Assembly (NCBI GenBank): GCA_943357915.1
Contig: CALRGQ010000010.1
Coordinates: 1-34,881, forward strand
Source: Candidatus Peribacteria bacterium
GTDB lineage: Bacteria; Patescibacteriota; Gracilibacteria; Peribacterales; Peribacteraceae
Reading direction: 5' to 3'
DNA: 34,881 bases
The translations under genes and the position numbers were made by a program. Positions 27,739 through 33,940 of the stretch are shown one piece after another; the first letter of the stretch is position 1; each line of letters starts with the position of its first letter. The notes beneath the pieces are model-generated. The model worked only from the letters and a program-made list of their open reading frames with translations. It did not search any database and had not been told where the DNA came from.

Positions 27739-27813
27739 ACAAAAAAAGTCTATGGAAGGCATGAAGGAAGTGCAAACCGATCCTGATGTCAGGCTGTGAC
27801 GTCAATTTGTTTT

Positions 27814-27838
27814 GTAGAGACGTGCGGCGCGCACGTCT
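27814..27838. repeat. GTAGAGACG-type palindromic element
   Basis: gtagAGACGTGC-ggcgc-GCACGTCT; shares GTAGAGACGTGCG with 12536-12548. Confidence 0.75.
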
Positions 27839-27869
27839 ATCCATGACGCATCTGCTACAATCGATTCCC

Positions 27870-29537
27870 ATGCAGCAAACCTGCGCAAACGGCTGGTGCA
27901 AATCGTCTTTCGACGTCACCGACGATGATCTCGCATTTTACGACAAAGTCTCGCCGGTTTTTGAAGGTAAGAAATATACGATTCCACCACCAACGCTGTG
28001 TCCTGATTGCAGGATGCAACGCAGAATGCTGTGGAGAAATGAACTACACGTCTTTCTCGGCGAAAGTGCGCTGAGTGGCAAAAAAACAATGACGCAATTT
28101 ACACCCAATGCTCCATACGTCGTCTATGCGTACGAAGAATGGCAAAGCGACGCCTGGGATGCAACTGATTACGGTATGACAGCGGATCCCACACAGCCAT
28201 TCTTTTCACAATTTGAAGCACAACTTCATCGTGTCCCCCACCCCAGCCGGAGTGTCATCAGTAATGAAAATTGTGACTACGCAAACGCAACATCGTGGTC
28301 GAAAAATTGCTACATGGTGGGAGCATGCAGTAGGAATGAAGATTGTTCGTACTGTTACAACTTAAGCTACTGCAAAGACTGTATGGATTGCAGCTTCATT
28401 TACAATTGCGAACGATGCTACGGCTGTATCTACTGCAAACAATGTACCGCGGTCCGATACTCCAAGAAGTGTGTGGACTGTAGTGATTCGTATTTTCTTC
28501 TTAGTTGCGAGCATTGTTCCAATTGCTTCGGATGCGCAAATATATCGCACAAAAAATACTGTTTCTTTAATGAACAACTAACCAAAGAAGAGTATGAAAA
28601 AAGAATAAGCAACATAGATCTGACAAGCAGAGACAATGTCCTAGAAATACAAAAGGAAGCTCAGAAACACTGGCTGACTTTCCCACAGAAATACATGCGA
28701 GGCGATATGAATGAAAATGTAACGGGCAATAATATCTCCCAATCAAAAAACGTGCGCTCGTGCTTCGATGCATCAGAGCTAGAAGACTGTGCACACTGCT
28801 GGACACTGCATCAGTCCAGAGACTGCCAAGACTGCTATGGCTGGGGACGAACGGCAGAACTCTGCTACGAATGTACAGAAGTTGGAGACGGCTCCACAAA
28901 TGCAGTGCTCAGCGCCAAGGTCTATGCAAGTCACGACATTCTCTACTCGTTCTCCTGTTATCGATGTCATCATTTATTCGGCTGTGTATCGATGAAAGAT
29001 TCTTCGTACTGCATCTTCAATACGCAATACACCAAAGAAGAATATGACAAGAAAGTTCCAGAGCTTATCGAGTCAATGCGTACACATGGAGAGTGGGGAG
29101 AGTTTTTCCCGATGCAGATAGCTCCATTTGCATACAACGCAAGTGCGGCAATCGACTACTTTCCCCTGACAGAAAGTGAAGCAGAAAGATTACATATTCC
29201 ATGGTATAGAGATGATAATCCTCCTACGTCTCATCTTCCTGCCGCTCCCAATACCGCTGTAGAAATACAAAAAGCCCCGGCTATTTTCCGTTGCAACGCT
29301 ACTCAAGCGCCATTCAAGATCATCGAACAAGAACTCGCATTCTACACACGCGAAGGAATTCCTCCTCCTGATGCCTGTTTCGCTGAAAGAAATAGAAGAC
29401 GTTTCACAGAAAGTGACTCGCACAAGCTCTGGAACCGCACCTGCGCCAAATGCGAGAAGTTGATTTCAACCAGTTACCAGCCTTCGCGCCCTGAAATTAT
29501 TTATTGCGAACAGTGTTATTTGGAAACCGTATACTGA
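27870..29537 (+). CDS. Cys-rich multi-zinc-ribbon protein, paralog 2
   Basis: ORF 27786..29537; start MQQTCANGWCKSSFDVTDDDLAFYDKVSPVF; same architecture as the other paralogs, ends YCEQCYLETVY*. Confidence 0.9.
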   Translation: MQQTCANGWCKSSFDVTDDDLAFYDKVSPVFEGKKYTIPPPTLCPDCRMQRRMLWRNELHVFLGESALSGKKTMTQFTPNAPYVVYAYEEWQSDAWDATDYGMTADPTQPFFSQFEAQLHRVPHPSRSVISNENCDYANATSWSKNCYMVGACSRNEDCSYCYNLSYCKDCMDCSFIYNCERCYGCIYCKQCTAVRYSKKCVDCSDSYFLLSCEHCSNCFGCANISHKKYCFFNEQLTKEEYEKRISNIDLTSRDNVLEIQKEAQKHWLTFPQKYMRGDMNENVTGNNISQSKNVRSCFDASELEDCAHCWTLHQSRDCQDCYGWGRTAELCYECTEVGDGSTNAVLSAKVYASHDILYSFSCYRCHHLFGCVSMKDSSYCIFNTQYTKEEYDKKVPELIESMRTHGEWGEFFPMQIAPFAYNASAAIDYFPLTESEAERLHIPWYRDDNPPTSHLPAAPNTAVEIQKAPAIFRCNATQAPFKIIEQELAFYTREGIPPPDACFAERNRRRFTESDSHKLWNRTCAKCEKLISTSYQPSRPEIIYCEQCYLETVY

Positions 29538-29645: not shown

Positions 29646-30476
29646 CTACTCTCTTCGCGTTATTCGCTGCAACCACGACTCCGGATCCATTGCCGGCCTC
29701 ACATCTGGTGGCGGCAAGTTTTTGCTGATCGCATCAAAGAAGAAGTGGAAAATCTGACTCATCTGCTCTTGTTTGATCTTGAGGCCGACCTGAGAGTCTC
29801 CATAACATGCTAAATACAATGCAGTGCCCACAAGAAACACAGTCGTAGCGCCTCTGGCGGCCGGAAATTCATCTGGATCAAAATGCCTGGGATCAATACG
29901 GCGAATATACTCAGGCAGCAGCGTTCCGGACGCCTCAATGATCTCGATACCGAGTTTAGATACCTGCGCGTCCCGAAAGAAATCACCCATGAATTTGGAA
30001 AGCGCTATTGACCCCATCTGCTGATCAAACGTATTGGACGTGATCATCCGAATGCGCAGGATTCCCTCGTTTTTGGCTTCGAAAAGAATGTCCCGAAAAA
30101 GACTTTTGATACCTGACGTTCCCTGAAACACCTGCACTGTTGGGACAAAGCCTTCGCCGCGCATCAGCTGCTTGAGCTCGGTCTCGATACTCGGAACAAG
30201 ATTCGTCATCTCTTGGACAACCTGACTACGATCCTCAAGATGAGACTTGATCCCGTCTGTACCCGTGATACCAAAACACTGAATGCCGTCACGCAGAAAA
30301 ACTTTTACCAGCCCCATCGACTCCAGTTTTTTGAGATGTTTATATGTGACGACTCGGTCCTGCTTCAGGCGTGCGGCAATGATAGAGGCAGGCTGTACGC
30401 CAAGACCTGCAAGCGTCAGATAGATCGATTGCTCTTTGTCATTCAAGCCGAGCTTTGCAAGATATTCTTTAATCAT
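29646..30476 (-). CDS. TrmB-family-like transcriptional regulator
   Basis: N-terminal winged HTH: LGLNDKEQSIYLTLAGLGVQPASIIAARLKQDRVVTYKHLKKLESMGLVKV; C-terminal effector domain. Confidence 0.85.
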   Translation of the reverse strand: MIKEYLAKLGLNDKEQSIYLTLAGLGVQPASIIAARLKQDRVVTYKHLKKLESMGLVKVFLRDGIQCFGITGTDGIKSHLEDRSQVVQEMTNLVPSIETELKQLMRGEGFVPTVQVFQGTSGIKSLFRDILFEAKNEGILRIRMITSNTFDQQMGSIALSKFMGDFFRDAQVSKLGIEIIEASGTLLPEYIRRIDPRHFDPDEFPAARGATTVFLVGTALYLACYGDSQVGLKIKQEQMSQIFHFFFDAISKNLPPPDVRPAMDPESWLQRITRRE

Positions 30477-30531: not shown

Positions 30532-32232
30532 TTGGAAGCGCAATTCCCCATGTTCTCTATGAAGAAACGATGCACACAATGTACAGAAAGCTTCACGGTC
30601 ACACCCGAAGCCATCACGATGCTGGGGCGACTCGCGCCAGTGGTAGGCGGAAAGACACTCGTACTACCTGAACCGACATGTTGCCCAGATTGTCGCCAGC
30701 AGCGACGTCTAACATTCCGAAACGACAGTCACTATTATAAGAACACCTGTGTAAGCTGTAAGAAAAGCGTCATCTCGATTTACTCTCCTGACAAAAATCT
30801 CCCGGTACTGTGTCCGGATTGTTTCTGGTCCGATCAATGGGACGCACTGGCGTATGGTCGGGATTTTGATTTTTCGAAATCATATGCGGAACAGTTTGCG
30901 GAACTAAAGAAAATCGTACCACGGCTCTGTATTTTCAATACGCAGAGTGATAATGCCGACTACACCGTCCACAGTTCCCGTAACAAAAACTGCTACATGT
31001 GCAGCTCTACGCTGGGTAGTCAGGATGTCTATTTCTCGGATTGGTCGATCGATAGTAGTGATAGCAGCGATCTCCTCATGTGCAGTGAAATGGAACTCTG
31101 TTACGCCTGTAACGACTCCCGTCACTGTTTCAATGGCGACTGGCTGGATCTCTGCTCCAATGTCTCAGACAGCTGCCTGTGTTTCGACTGTCACTCATCA
31201 CAAGATCTCGTAGGCTGCGTTTCCATGAAGAACAAGAAAAATATGATTCTCAACAAACCTTCTGATCAAAAGACTGTCAAAGAAACAATTGATCGACTCA
31301 AGACTGATCGTGCATTCCGTGAATCTTTTCAAGAATCCTTTCATGCCCTGAAGCTAACTTTGCCAAAACGTGCTGCATGGAACTTGAACACCGAAGATGC
31401 CAGTGGCAATTACCTCCAAAACGCCAAAGGTGTCCATCAATCGTTCAGTTCAACGAACGTGGAGGACTGCGAGCACGTCTACGATGTCGTCAATGGCAAG
31501 AACTGCATGGACGTAACGCGTGGTGGCGGGTGCGAATCACTCTATGAATGCAAAGGAGTGATCGACCTCACACTCAGTTGCTTCTGCAATCTTACCTACC
31601 AATGTGACAACCTGCTGTACTGTGACAACGCACACGCCAGCAGTTACTGCTTCGGCTGTTTTAGCACGAAAAAGGTGAAGCACTGCATCTTGAATAAGCA
31701 ATACACGAAAGAAGAATACGAATCACTCGTACCGCGCATTATCGAGCACATGAAGTCGATGGGCGAATGGGGCGAATTCTTCCCAACGACACTGTCGTCC
31801 TTCGGTTACAACGAGACAAAGGCATACGAATCATTTCCGATGACCCGAAATGACGTTCTGAAACGGGGATGGCAATGGTCCGATATCGATGAAACTCCGA
31901 CAGCCGGTCTCAAAGTCATCAATGCGGAACGTCTGCCAGATACCATCAAAGATGTTCCGGACGATATTCTGAACCTTGTCATTGCATCCGAAGCCAGCCG
32001 CAAACCATTTCGGATCATCCCACAGGAACTCGCGTTCTACCGAAAGAAAAATCTGCCACTCCCCCATCTCCATCCGCATGAACGGCTCCGGAAACTTGCG
32101 CTGCTTGAAAACCCAAAAAGGCTCTACGAACGTACCTGCGATAAATGCAGCACACCGATAGAAACAACGTATGCGCCTGAGAGACCAGAGATTGTCTACT
32201 GTGAAGAATGCTATTTGAAAGAGGTATACTGA
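30532..32232 (+). CDS. Cys-rich multi-zinc-ribbon protein, paralog 3
   Basis: RCTQCTESF...CCPDCRQQRR; two Cys-rich blocks; ends YCEECYLKEVY*. Start could be 30532, 30550 or 30559. Confidence 0.9.
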   Translation: MEAQFPMFSMKKRCTQCTESFTVTPEAITMLGRLAPVVGGKTLVLPEPTCCPDCRQQRRLTFRNDSHYYKNTCVSCKKSVISIYSPDKNLPVLCPDCFWSDQWDALAYGRDFDFSKSYAEQFAELKKIVPRLCIFNTQSDNADYTVHSSRNKNCYMCSSTLGSQDVYFSDWSIDSSDSSDLLMCSEMELCYACNDSRHCFNGDWLDLCSNVSDSCLCFDCHSSQDLVGCVSMKNKKNMILNKPSDQKTVKETIDRLKTDRAFRESFQESFHALKLTLPKRAAWNLNTEDASGNYLQNAKGVHQSFSSTNVEDCEHVYDVVNGKNCMDVTRGGGCESLYECKGVIDLTLSCFCNLTYQCDNLLYCDNAHASSYCFGCFSTKKVKHCILNKQYTKEEYESLVPRIIEHMKSMGEWGEFFPTTLSSFGYNETKAYESFPMTRNDVLKRGWQWSDIDETPTAGLKVINAERLPDTIKDVPDDILNLVIASEASRKPFRIIPQELAFYRKKNLPLPHLHPHERLRKLALLENPKRLYERTCDKCSTPIETTYAPERPEIVYCEECYLKEVY

Positions 32233-32257: not shown

Positions 32258-33940
32258 ATGACAAGTAATACGTGTGCCAACGGCTGGTGTCATCAATCCT
32301 TTGAAGTAACCGACGAGGATTTGGTCTTTTTCAGTAAAGTTTCACCAGTATTTGGAGGAAAAAAGTATGCGGTTCCCCCGCCGACGCTATGCCCCAACTG
32401 CCGACAACAGAAGAGACTCGCCTGGCGCAATGAGAGATCACTGCACAAGCGAGCGTGTGATCTCACGGGGAAATCGATCGTGTCACTCTACAGTACCGAT
32501 GCTGCCTTCACAGTCTATGCACAGGATGTGTGGTGGGGAGACTCATGGGATGCCCTGAGCTTCGGGCGCGATATCGATCTTAATCGACCGTTCTTTGAAC
32601 AGTTTGCAGAACTCATGAAGATAGTCCCGCACATGGGCATGTTCATTTCGCACGGGGAAAATAGCGATTACTGTCCGTATTCCACAGATTACAAAGACTC
32701 GTACATGTGTATATCGGGCAGGAAGGGTGAGAATATCTACTATTCGTTCATGCTCAACGATTCGCGTGATTGCATGGATTGTTACGCGTGTCCGCAATCC
32801 GAACTGTGCTATGAATGCGTGAACTGCGTCCATGTCTACAACACGATCCACTGCATCGAATGCAAAAATTCCAATGATCTGGCGTTCTGTATGAATTGTG
32901 AAAGCTGTCAAAATTGCATCGGATGCTACGGATTGCGCCAGCAGAAATTTCACGTATTCAATAAGTCAGTCAGTGAAGAAGAGTATCATCGTCTGAATCT
33001 TGAGTTACGCATAAGCTCATCTGCACTGCAGGAATTTAAAAAGAAAGCTCTCGCCTTCTTCCTGGGATTCCCACGCAGAAACGCGCAGATGATCAATACC
33101 GAACATTCCTCGGGAGACTATCTCGTCAATTGTAGTAACGCATACTGCTGCTTTCTGAGTGAAGATCTGCAGGATTGCGCCTATGTCTGGAACACGCCAC
33201 ATTCAAAAGACTGCGCTGATATCAATTACTCCTCCAAAACACAGCTGATCTATAACGCCATGAGCAACGTGAATTCGTATGCTTGTATCGGTTGTATGGG
33301 CAGCTGGGATATGAAGAATAGCTTGTACTGCTTTCAGTCATTTTACAGTTCTGATCTCTTTGGATGCATCGGGCTCAAGCATAAGAAATACTGCATTCTG
33401 AACAAGGAATACACGAAAGAAGATTACGAAACTCTGGTACCCAAGATCATCGACATGATGCAGAAGAACGGCGAATGGGGCGAATTCTTCCCCTTACAAC
33501 TCTCACCATTCGCATACAACGAAAGTATAGCTCACGAATTTTTCCCGCTAAGCAAAGTACAAGCCGAAGAGCTGGGACTGTCCTGGGAAGAGCACGTGGA
33601 ATCGGTGTCCGGAACAACGAAAACCATTCCCGCTGACCGCCTGCCCGACTCTATCCGTGATATTCCCGATGACATCGTCAACTGGGGCATTCAATGTGAG
33701 ACCACTGGACGCATTTTTCGCATCGTCGCCCAAGAATTACGATTCTACCGGGAAAGGAACGTACCGGTTCCACATCTACATCCTCATGAGAGACACAGAA
33801 AACGGTTGCGATTCATCAATCCCCGCAAACTGTGGGATCGCGAATGTGCCAAATGCCAGAAACCGATCTCGACGAGTTATGCACCCGAACGGCGGGAGAT
33901 TGTATATTGCGAACGTTGTTATCTCGAAACCGTATATTGA
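32258..33940 (+). CDS. Cys-rich multi-zinc-ribbon protein, paralog 4
   Basis: TCANGWCHQSFEVTDEDLVFFSKVSPVFGGKKYAVPPPTLCPNCRQQKR; ends YCERCYLETVY*; 25 nt after paralog 3. Confidence 0.9.
   Translation: MTSNTCANGWCHQSFEVTDEDLVFFSKVSPVFGGKKYAVPPPTLCPNCRQQKRLAWRNERSLHKRACDLTGKSIVSLYSTDAAFTVYAQDVWWGDSWDALSFGRDIDLNRPFFEQFAELMKIVPHMGMFISHGENSDYCPYSTDYKDSYMCISGRKGENIYYSFMLNDSRDCMDCYACPQSELCYECVNCVHVYNTIHCIECKNSNDLAFCMNCESCQNCIGCYGLRQQKFHVFNKSVSEEEYHRLNLELRISSSALQEFKKKALAFFLGFPRRNAQMINTEHSSGDYLVNCSNAYCCFLSEDLQDCAYVWNTPHSKDCADINYSSKTQLIYNAMSNVNSYACIGCMGSWDMKNSLYCFQSFYSSDLFGCIGLKHKKYCILNKEYTKEDYETLVPKIIDMMQKNGEWGEFFPLQLSPFAYNESIAHEFFPLSKVQAEELGLSWEEHVESVSGTTKTIPADRLPDSIRDIPDDIVNWGIQCETTGRIFRIVAQELRFYRERNVPVPHLHPHERHRKRLRFINPRKLWDRECAKCQKPISTSYAPERREIVYCERCYLETVY

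Follow-up and report, generated by a model that had tools for sequence, protein, structure and literature searches.

The window analyzed here, a stretch of 34,881 nucleotides, is a complete contig of the 1.39-Mb genome (97% complete) of a Candidatus Peribacteria bacterium. It encodes four cysteine-rich paralogs, together with a TrmB-like helix-turn-helix (HTH) regulator; paralogs of the family are about 40% identical. D1 and D2 denote two successive triplet-phased domains, "in phase" refers to cysteines on a common three-residue register, and all coordinates are those of the window. The features are as follows:

204 to 1943, + strand: paralog 1 (P0001), aligned part (ORF list, family alignment)
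597 to 851, + strand: D1 of paralog 1, 15 of 15 Cys in phase
27870 to 29537, + strand: paralog 2 (P0002) from its likely ATG (mechanical ORF, 27786-29537)
27870 to 28040, + strand: N-terminal zinc-finger-like module of paralog 2, CxxxxC...CxxC, treble-clef-like, with invariant Cys columns (AlphaFold2 pLDDT 94-97)
28269 to 28583, + strand: D1 of paralog 2, 20 of 20 Cys in phase, 12-residue period, every third residue inward
28557 to 28616, + strand: cap 1 of paralog 2, YCFFNEQLTKEEYEKR..., a predicted strand then helix closing D1 (AlphaFold2 secondary structure)
28713 to 29033, + strand: D2 of paralog 2, triplet phase in segments, ending in cap 2 (YCIFNTQYTKEEYD...)
29277 to 29534, + strand: C-terminal zinc-finger-like module of paralog 2, CxxC-x17-CxxC, resembling PF23477 zf_Tbcl_2 and LIM
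29646 to 30476, - strand: TrmB-like HTH regulator, divergent from paralog 3 (PF01978, E 1e-7)
30565 to 32232, + strand: paralog 3 (P0003), aligned part (mechanical ORF from 30532)
30991 to 31218, + strand: D1 of paralog 3, 10 of its 11 Cys in phase and many inward positions occupied by Ser
32258 to 33940, + strand: paralog 4 (P0004) (ORF list, family alignment)
32672 to 32926, + strand: D1 of paralog 4, 15 of 15 Cys in phase (modeled alone with AlphaFold2)
33119 to 33400, + strand: D2 of paralog 4, to cap 2 (family alignment, phase)

The mechanical ORF of paralog 1 begins at position 12; an ATG at 207 or 210 is the likelier start, and the gene sits at the contig edge. Family members occur at both contig ends (204-1940 and 32258-33937), as if the assembly broke at the arrays, and a short remnant near the contig end (34669-34758) shares 60% identity with the beginning of paralog 4.

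From the N-terminus, the proteins consist of a zinc-finger-like module, D1, a cap, a variable helical linker, D2, a second cap, another linker, and a C-terminal module that terminates in CEECYLxxVY. The cap motif, xYxxxNxQxTKEEYE (N-x-Q-x-T-x-E-E-Y), closes both D1 and D2, the D2 copy being better conserved. The CxxC/CxxC sites of the end modules, which are predicted to bind zinc, lie outside the solenoids. By eye, the two end modules resemble each other, as do D1-cap and D2-cap, and each pair may have arisen by duplication. Searches with Pfam, NCBIfam, and PADLOC signatures yielded just sub-threshold zinc-finger matches for the family. For example, the N-terminal region of paralog 1 gave a weak match to Pfam zf_Tbcl (E 4.5e-4, under cut-off), and the C-terminal module matched PF23477 zf_Tbcl_2 (E 0.002, under cut-off) and LIM chains (E 0.002). 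The best zf_Tbcl_2 and TIGR04272 scores, both from paralog 1, were 25 bits against a cut-off of 27 and 21.9 against 36, respectively, with the other paralogs lower. The treble-clef families zf_Tbcl, zf_Tbcl_2, and TIGR04272 (CxxC-x17-CxxC) resemble the end modules, always under curated cut-offs; the solenoids themselves are not zinc fingers. Hydropathy shows no hydrophobic N-terminus and no visible signal peptide, in agreement with the original prediction that none precedes the first zinc-finger-like module. No description of this protein family was found in the open literature. The Cys-rich proteins reported from Ca. Peribacter (PMC4736985) appear to be different, because they are large (mean 1,655 aa) and carry signal peptides.

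The original prediction, made from the letters of the window, placed 60 of 61 central cysteines of the four paralogs on one three-residue phase, and this count was reproduced exactly. In paralog 2, all 20 cysteines between residues 163 and 259 (28272-28562) are in phase, with gaps of 12,6,6,3,6,3,3,6,3,3,3,3,9,3,9,3,3,3,9; the corresponding counts are 15 of 15 in paralog 1 (597-851), 15 of 15 in paralog 4 (32672-32926), and 10 of 11 in paralog 3 (30991-31218). Among 217 homologs, the modal phase accounts for 2943 of 3145 D1 cysteines (0.936), relative to 0.453 in shuffled sequences (maximum of 50 shuffles, 0.466), and every D1 cysteine (100%) is in phase in 114 of the 217. The N-terminal region served as a control and has no such phase (0.481 versus 0.532 shuffled). 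The triplet phase of the central cysteines is real and confirmed. In the D1 family alignment, the inward positions hold C (43%), S (17%), and L (8%), then N, V, G, T, I, and A, and the residue preceding them is mostly N, D, Y, or G. D2 appears as a second solenoid in each protein, with a phase that is divided into segments because of short insertions.

Statistics on 205 non-redundant sequences define the length of the turn. Similarity between column profiles peaks at +12 only (0.22; permuted, -0.02 +/- 0.05; 0 of 1000 permutations). The Cys-Cys correlation is +0.10 at +12, as expected of the thiol ladders along the axis that had been proposed, -0.12 at +6, -0.07 at +18, and near 0 elsewhere, and the bootstrap intervals at +12 and +6 exclude zero. 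In contrasts over 102 nearest-neighbor pairs, where most shared ancestry cancels out, z is +3.4 at +12 and -3.3 at +6. Likewise, the volumes of inward residues correlate at -0.19, -0.10, and -0.12 at +3, +9, and +12 (nearest-pair z of -9.3, -3.0, and -3.6), with outward positions at ~0; these separations are those of in-turn and stacked neighbors in a square tube. The core volume per turn (four inward residues) has a variance 0.68 of expectation (z -12.5), and the summed volume of eight inward residues has a variance ratio of 0.515, compared with 0.97 for outward controls. The number of cysteines per turn is only weakly conserved (variance ratio 0.92). Cys numbers are 48% even and 52% odd, with no even preference. 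On the outside, faces A and B are conserved (entropy of 1.3-2.25 bits), while faces C and D are hypervariable (2.8-3.6). By themselves, these sequence statistics support an arrangement of four triplets per 12-residue turn.

The AlphaFold2 model of paralog 2, built with 130 sequences (pLDDT 90.7, pTM 0.91), has beta-bridges at every third residue in both D1 and D2 and no separate ribbons. These isolated bridges sit one residue past the inward residue (Cys+1). A tight beta-solenoid with inward-facing phase residues is thus the predicted fold, and the model, the +12 column similarity, and the volume compensation all agree with the solenoid of one inward residue per triplet and four triplets per turn that was originally envisaged. 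Confidence in D1 of this model is 70-84 over most of its length, including the Cys-dense middle, and 93-98 at its end; D1 of paralog 4, modeled alone, reached a pLDDT of 81 and a pTM of 0.56, with 50-55 in the middle. Given this weak confidence in mid-D1, the fold there rests on the statistics, which share the family alignment with AlphaFold2 and are independent of the model. Foldseek found no match at E<=0.001 in the PDB or BFVD; its weak best matches were left-handed beta-helices (E 0.003-0.05, TM 0.1-0.3).

Among known folds, the beta-helix of beetle antifreeze proteins (TmAFP/DhbAFP, 1EZG; PF02420, IPR016133) comes closest in architecture; it likewise combines a 12-residue turn with a Cys-rich core. 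In the beetle protein, positions 2, 5, 8, and 11 of each turn point inward and disulfides join cysteines six residues apart (PMC8038014). The family differs in lacking this C2-C8 pairing (the opposite is seen), the TxT face, and the signal peptide, and in possessing caps, zinc-finger-like modules, two solenoids, and hundreds of residues. No match to Pfam PF02420 was obtained from the family. Pentapeptide-repeat and left-handed (hexapeptide) beta-helices share the inward ladders of small residues; however, their turns are of about 20 or 18 residues and their units of five or six, as opposed to 12 and three in the family. The five-residue period of the A(D/N)Lxx pentapeptide is absent, the periods being 3 and 12, and there was no Pfam match; nor is there a positive signal at +18, the turn of the hexapeptide helix (Cys correlation -0.07; Foldseek TM <=0.3).

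Apparently related arrays also occur in viruses. Searches with tblastn and PHROGs led to phage proteins in which CXX triplets follow one another without a break (27 and 23 Cys). The profile of PHROG 15341 (Campylobacter phage CP220 gp032, Vibrio phage 1.238 gene 69) matches window proteins at E 1.2e-5 and 2.6e-6, values that are inflated by Cys bias, and the match is weak because of this compositional bias. These PHROG proteins share the triplet Cys array and, unlike the family, are single, short domains of pure (CXX)n without zinc-finger-like modules. Two of the phage loci encode almost pure (CXX)n proteins of 23 and 27 Cys (L098:2872-3246 and L099:2899-3270), one of which is annotated as an insect antifreeze protein. 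Overall, (CXX)n proteins were found in 17 Campylobacter phage records and in about 36 distinct viral-contig ORFs, many with diverse codons; many simple DNA repeats also came up when viral contigs were scanned for the pattern, and only ORFs with diverse codons were kept. A match in Flavobacterium phage FL-1 was set aside, as the gene annotated at that place encodes an A-P-I/V repeat from a different reading frame of this repetitive DNA. No 12-residue period was detected in the outward residues of the phage (CXX)n arrays.

A cap profile built without the Cys part was run on 16,884 ORFs of viral loci and recovered (CXX)n proteins, those of L143 and L211 at E 2e-7 and those of L173, L168, L170, and L222 at 0.001-0.02, the last three within 0.006-0.02, along with some short ORFs containing the cap alone. 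The viral loci had been preselected for CXX arrays, so the informative point is that the matches fall in the array-bearing proteins themselves. The cap turned up in other viral (CXX)n proteins and not in the CP220 or Vibrio members of PHROG 15341. The small viral proteins of L170, L222, L143, and L168 combine (CXX)n with the same N-x-Q-x-T cap as the family; they differ in having one solenoid and no end modules, and in L143 and L168 the cap lies about 25 residues further on. In L170 (7408-8263) and L222 (183-551 and 2950-3396), small genes stand in tandem, each with a Cys-triplet array and an N-x-Q-x-T-E-x-E-Y end, like one D1-cap unit; L170:7743-8006 encodes a viral protein of 87 aa. Other viral (CXX)n families (L111, L161, L176, L188, L201, L139, L196) carry two recurrent N-terminal modules (RWYDENNNSW... 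and W[IV/L]TDANGN...), with several copies per virus. The capped viral proteins are likely homologous to the family; for the uncapped, pure (CXX)n arrays, convergence and homology are equally possible.

One rival idea, that the region is a string of independent CxxC zinc knuckles whose phase arose by chance or from repeated DNA, could appeal to the abundance of CxxC and to the flanking zinc-finger-like modules. It is refuted by the phase and covariation statistics and has next to no credibility: the phase holds over 90 residues and in 217 proteins, there is 12-residue covariation with volume compensation, and AlphaFold2 gives beta-bridges and no separate ribbons. The gaps of 3, 6, 9, and 12 are also unlike those of knuckles, in agreement with the original claim. 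An exported beta-helix stapled, like the beetle antifreeze protein, by disulfides between the i/i+6 cysteines of each turn is suggested by the beetle repeat TCTxSxNCxxAx, which matches the family in turn length (12 residues) and in placing positions 2, 5, 8, and 11 inward (PMC8038014). The D1 profile does bring up 1EZG, at E 3, and the antifreeze annotation of one phage (CXX)n protein points the same way. This explanation is nonetheless very improbable. Its i/i+6 chemistry is contradicted by the mutual avoidance of cysteines at +6, by the lack of an even preference (48/52), and by the missing signal peptide; there is no hydrophobic N-terminus, and outward Thr amounts to at most 6% on any face, so that no TxT ice-binding face is apparent. 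Closely spaced cysteines without disulfides have been described in beta-solenoid structures of another fold from other bacteria (the 2026 Knotted Solenoid paper; PMC13123833).

Metal binding is a more serious contender, albeit an unlikely one. Rings of four thiols might hold Zn, Cu(I), Fe, or Fe-S for metal storage, buffering, or stabilization, a notion favored by the presence of up to 20 Cys in about 100 residues and by Cys at every inward position of the phage arrays. In addition, the last D1 ring, C-x2-C-x2-C-x2-C (alignment columns 215-224), is nearly invariant (0.80-0.96 Cys) and holds more cysteine than packing alone needs; Cys is also frequent at columns 185-194, and in 93% one Cys or more is retained across the tube at pairs such as 209/215 and 206/212, above expectation. 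On the other hand, most inward positions change freely from Cys to S, L, V, T, or G in the D1 family alignment, the four-Cys sets are broken in many homologs, and no metal gene was noticed among the neighbors. Because core volume is much more tightly constrained than Cys number and these residues replace Cys, the main role of cysteine appears to be that of a small, reduced residue packing the core. Thus, of the original suggestion that reduced thiolate or metal coordination is likelier than disulfides, the part disfavoring disulfides stands, while the metal part yields to packing. A broader version, in which a widespread Cys-triplet beta-solenoid with an N-x-Q-T cap, common to phages and Patescibacteria, binds metal axially in its core as a protein-sheathed metal-thiolate rod, small and stand-alone in phages and amplified to large, variable arrays in episymbiont-type bacteria, is a long shot.

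The family is expanded in its host. The genome has about 19 copies, most of them near full-length, one in two pieces, plus fragments; about 15 near-full-length paralogs lie outside the window. The paralog split in two (G000:C21:3774-5436; L018, L020) is probably a decayed copy. A profile of these own-genome paralogs recovered at least 575 confirmed stretches, mostly from Peribacteria, Peregrinibacteria, and Gracilibacteria. Of the 145 genomes sampled from this class, 95 have a match at E<=1e-3, some with tens of copies and others with weak single matches that may be zinc modules only; outside the class, only two sampled genomes of the phylum have a match. A plasmid search gave no family match. 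Relatives on contigs labelled Micrarchaeota and Nitrospirota (L077, L092) are possibly binning errors, and members in three genomes (G043, G066, G135) contain 5-18 in-frame TGA codons, as would be expected if TGA encodes an amino acid there.

A TrmB-like HTH gene adjoins family genes in many loci, on the opposite strand and mostly divergent. In the host genome, five of eight TrmB-like copies lie inside arrays (~3e-6 if arrays make up 3.6% of the genome, a rough span estimate), and the arrays are regulated, or at least accompanied, by such genes. A TrwB/TraG-like ATPase (PF02534, PF10412) adjoins family genes in 11 loci outside the host genome and lies downstream of a family gene on the same strand in 10 loci. 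The ATPase loci noted include L027:7718-9967 and 10 similar ones, as well as G000:C37:4445-6064 and C21:10-759, and the gene is usually directly downstream on the same strand. Two of the four coupling-type ATPases of the host adjoin family arrays. The family might accordingly be a substrate or adaptor of the neighboring type IV secretion-type coupling ATPase, given this linkage in 10 outside loci and beside two host arrays and the conserved C-terminal CYLxxVY end. We consider this doubtful, since most arrays, those of the window included, lack such an ATPase and no secretion signal was identified in the family proteins. Work on Patescibacteria type IV secretion allows for recruitment of such coupling ATPases to other uses (PMC12102498).

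We therefore favor, as a reasonably probable account, two 12-residue-turn solenoids with reduced, packing cysteines, forming scaffolds in the cytoplasm that are bracketed by zinc modules and bind a range of partners through their variable faces. The central phase would be the signature of a beta-solenoid with four triplets per turn, one per side, in which the middle residue of each triplet (consensus [N/D]-[C/S]-x) faces the core. Both D1 and D2 would be shut by the conserved N-x-Q-x-T-x-E-E-Y strand-helix cap, with zinc-finger-like modules at the protein ends. Core Cys would be interchangeable with S/L/V/I/T/G/A at constant core volume, with no cross-tube disulfides. Outside, two faces are conserved as N/D and Tyr/Phe ladders and two are hypervariable. 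The gene has expanded into tandem arrays whose copies have diverged; a divergently oriented TrmB-like regulator often accompanies them, and in some cases the T4SS-coupling-type ATPase follows. The binding role is suggested by face variability and copy number, and a family of binding scaffolds with different targets appears to be the most economical interpretation; the reduced state and cytoplasmic location are likewise what we would infer.

If true, the family would provide a natural bacterial and phage case of the minimal 12-residue beta-helix, best known so far from beetle antifreeze proteins, and one held by reduced thiols instead of disulfides. It would also offer a readable sequence code in which every third residue is inward and volume-compensated. 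The small domain would let the role of stacked thiols, be it packing, redox, or metal, be measured directly. Finally, for a streamlined lineage, devoting about 2% of a 1.4 Mb genome to this one family implies strong selection.
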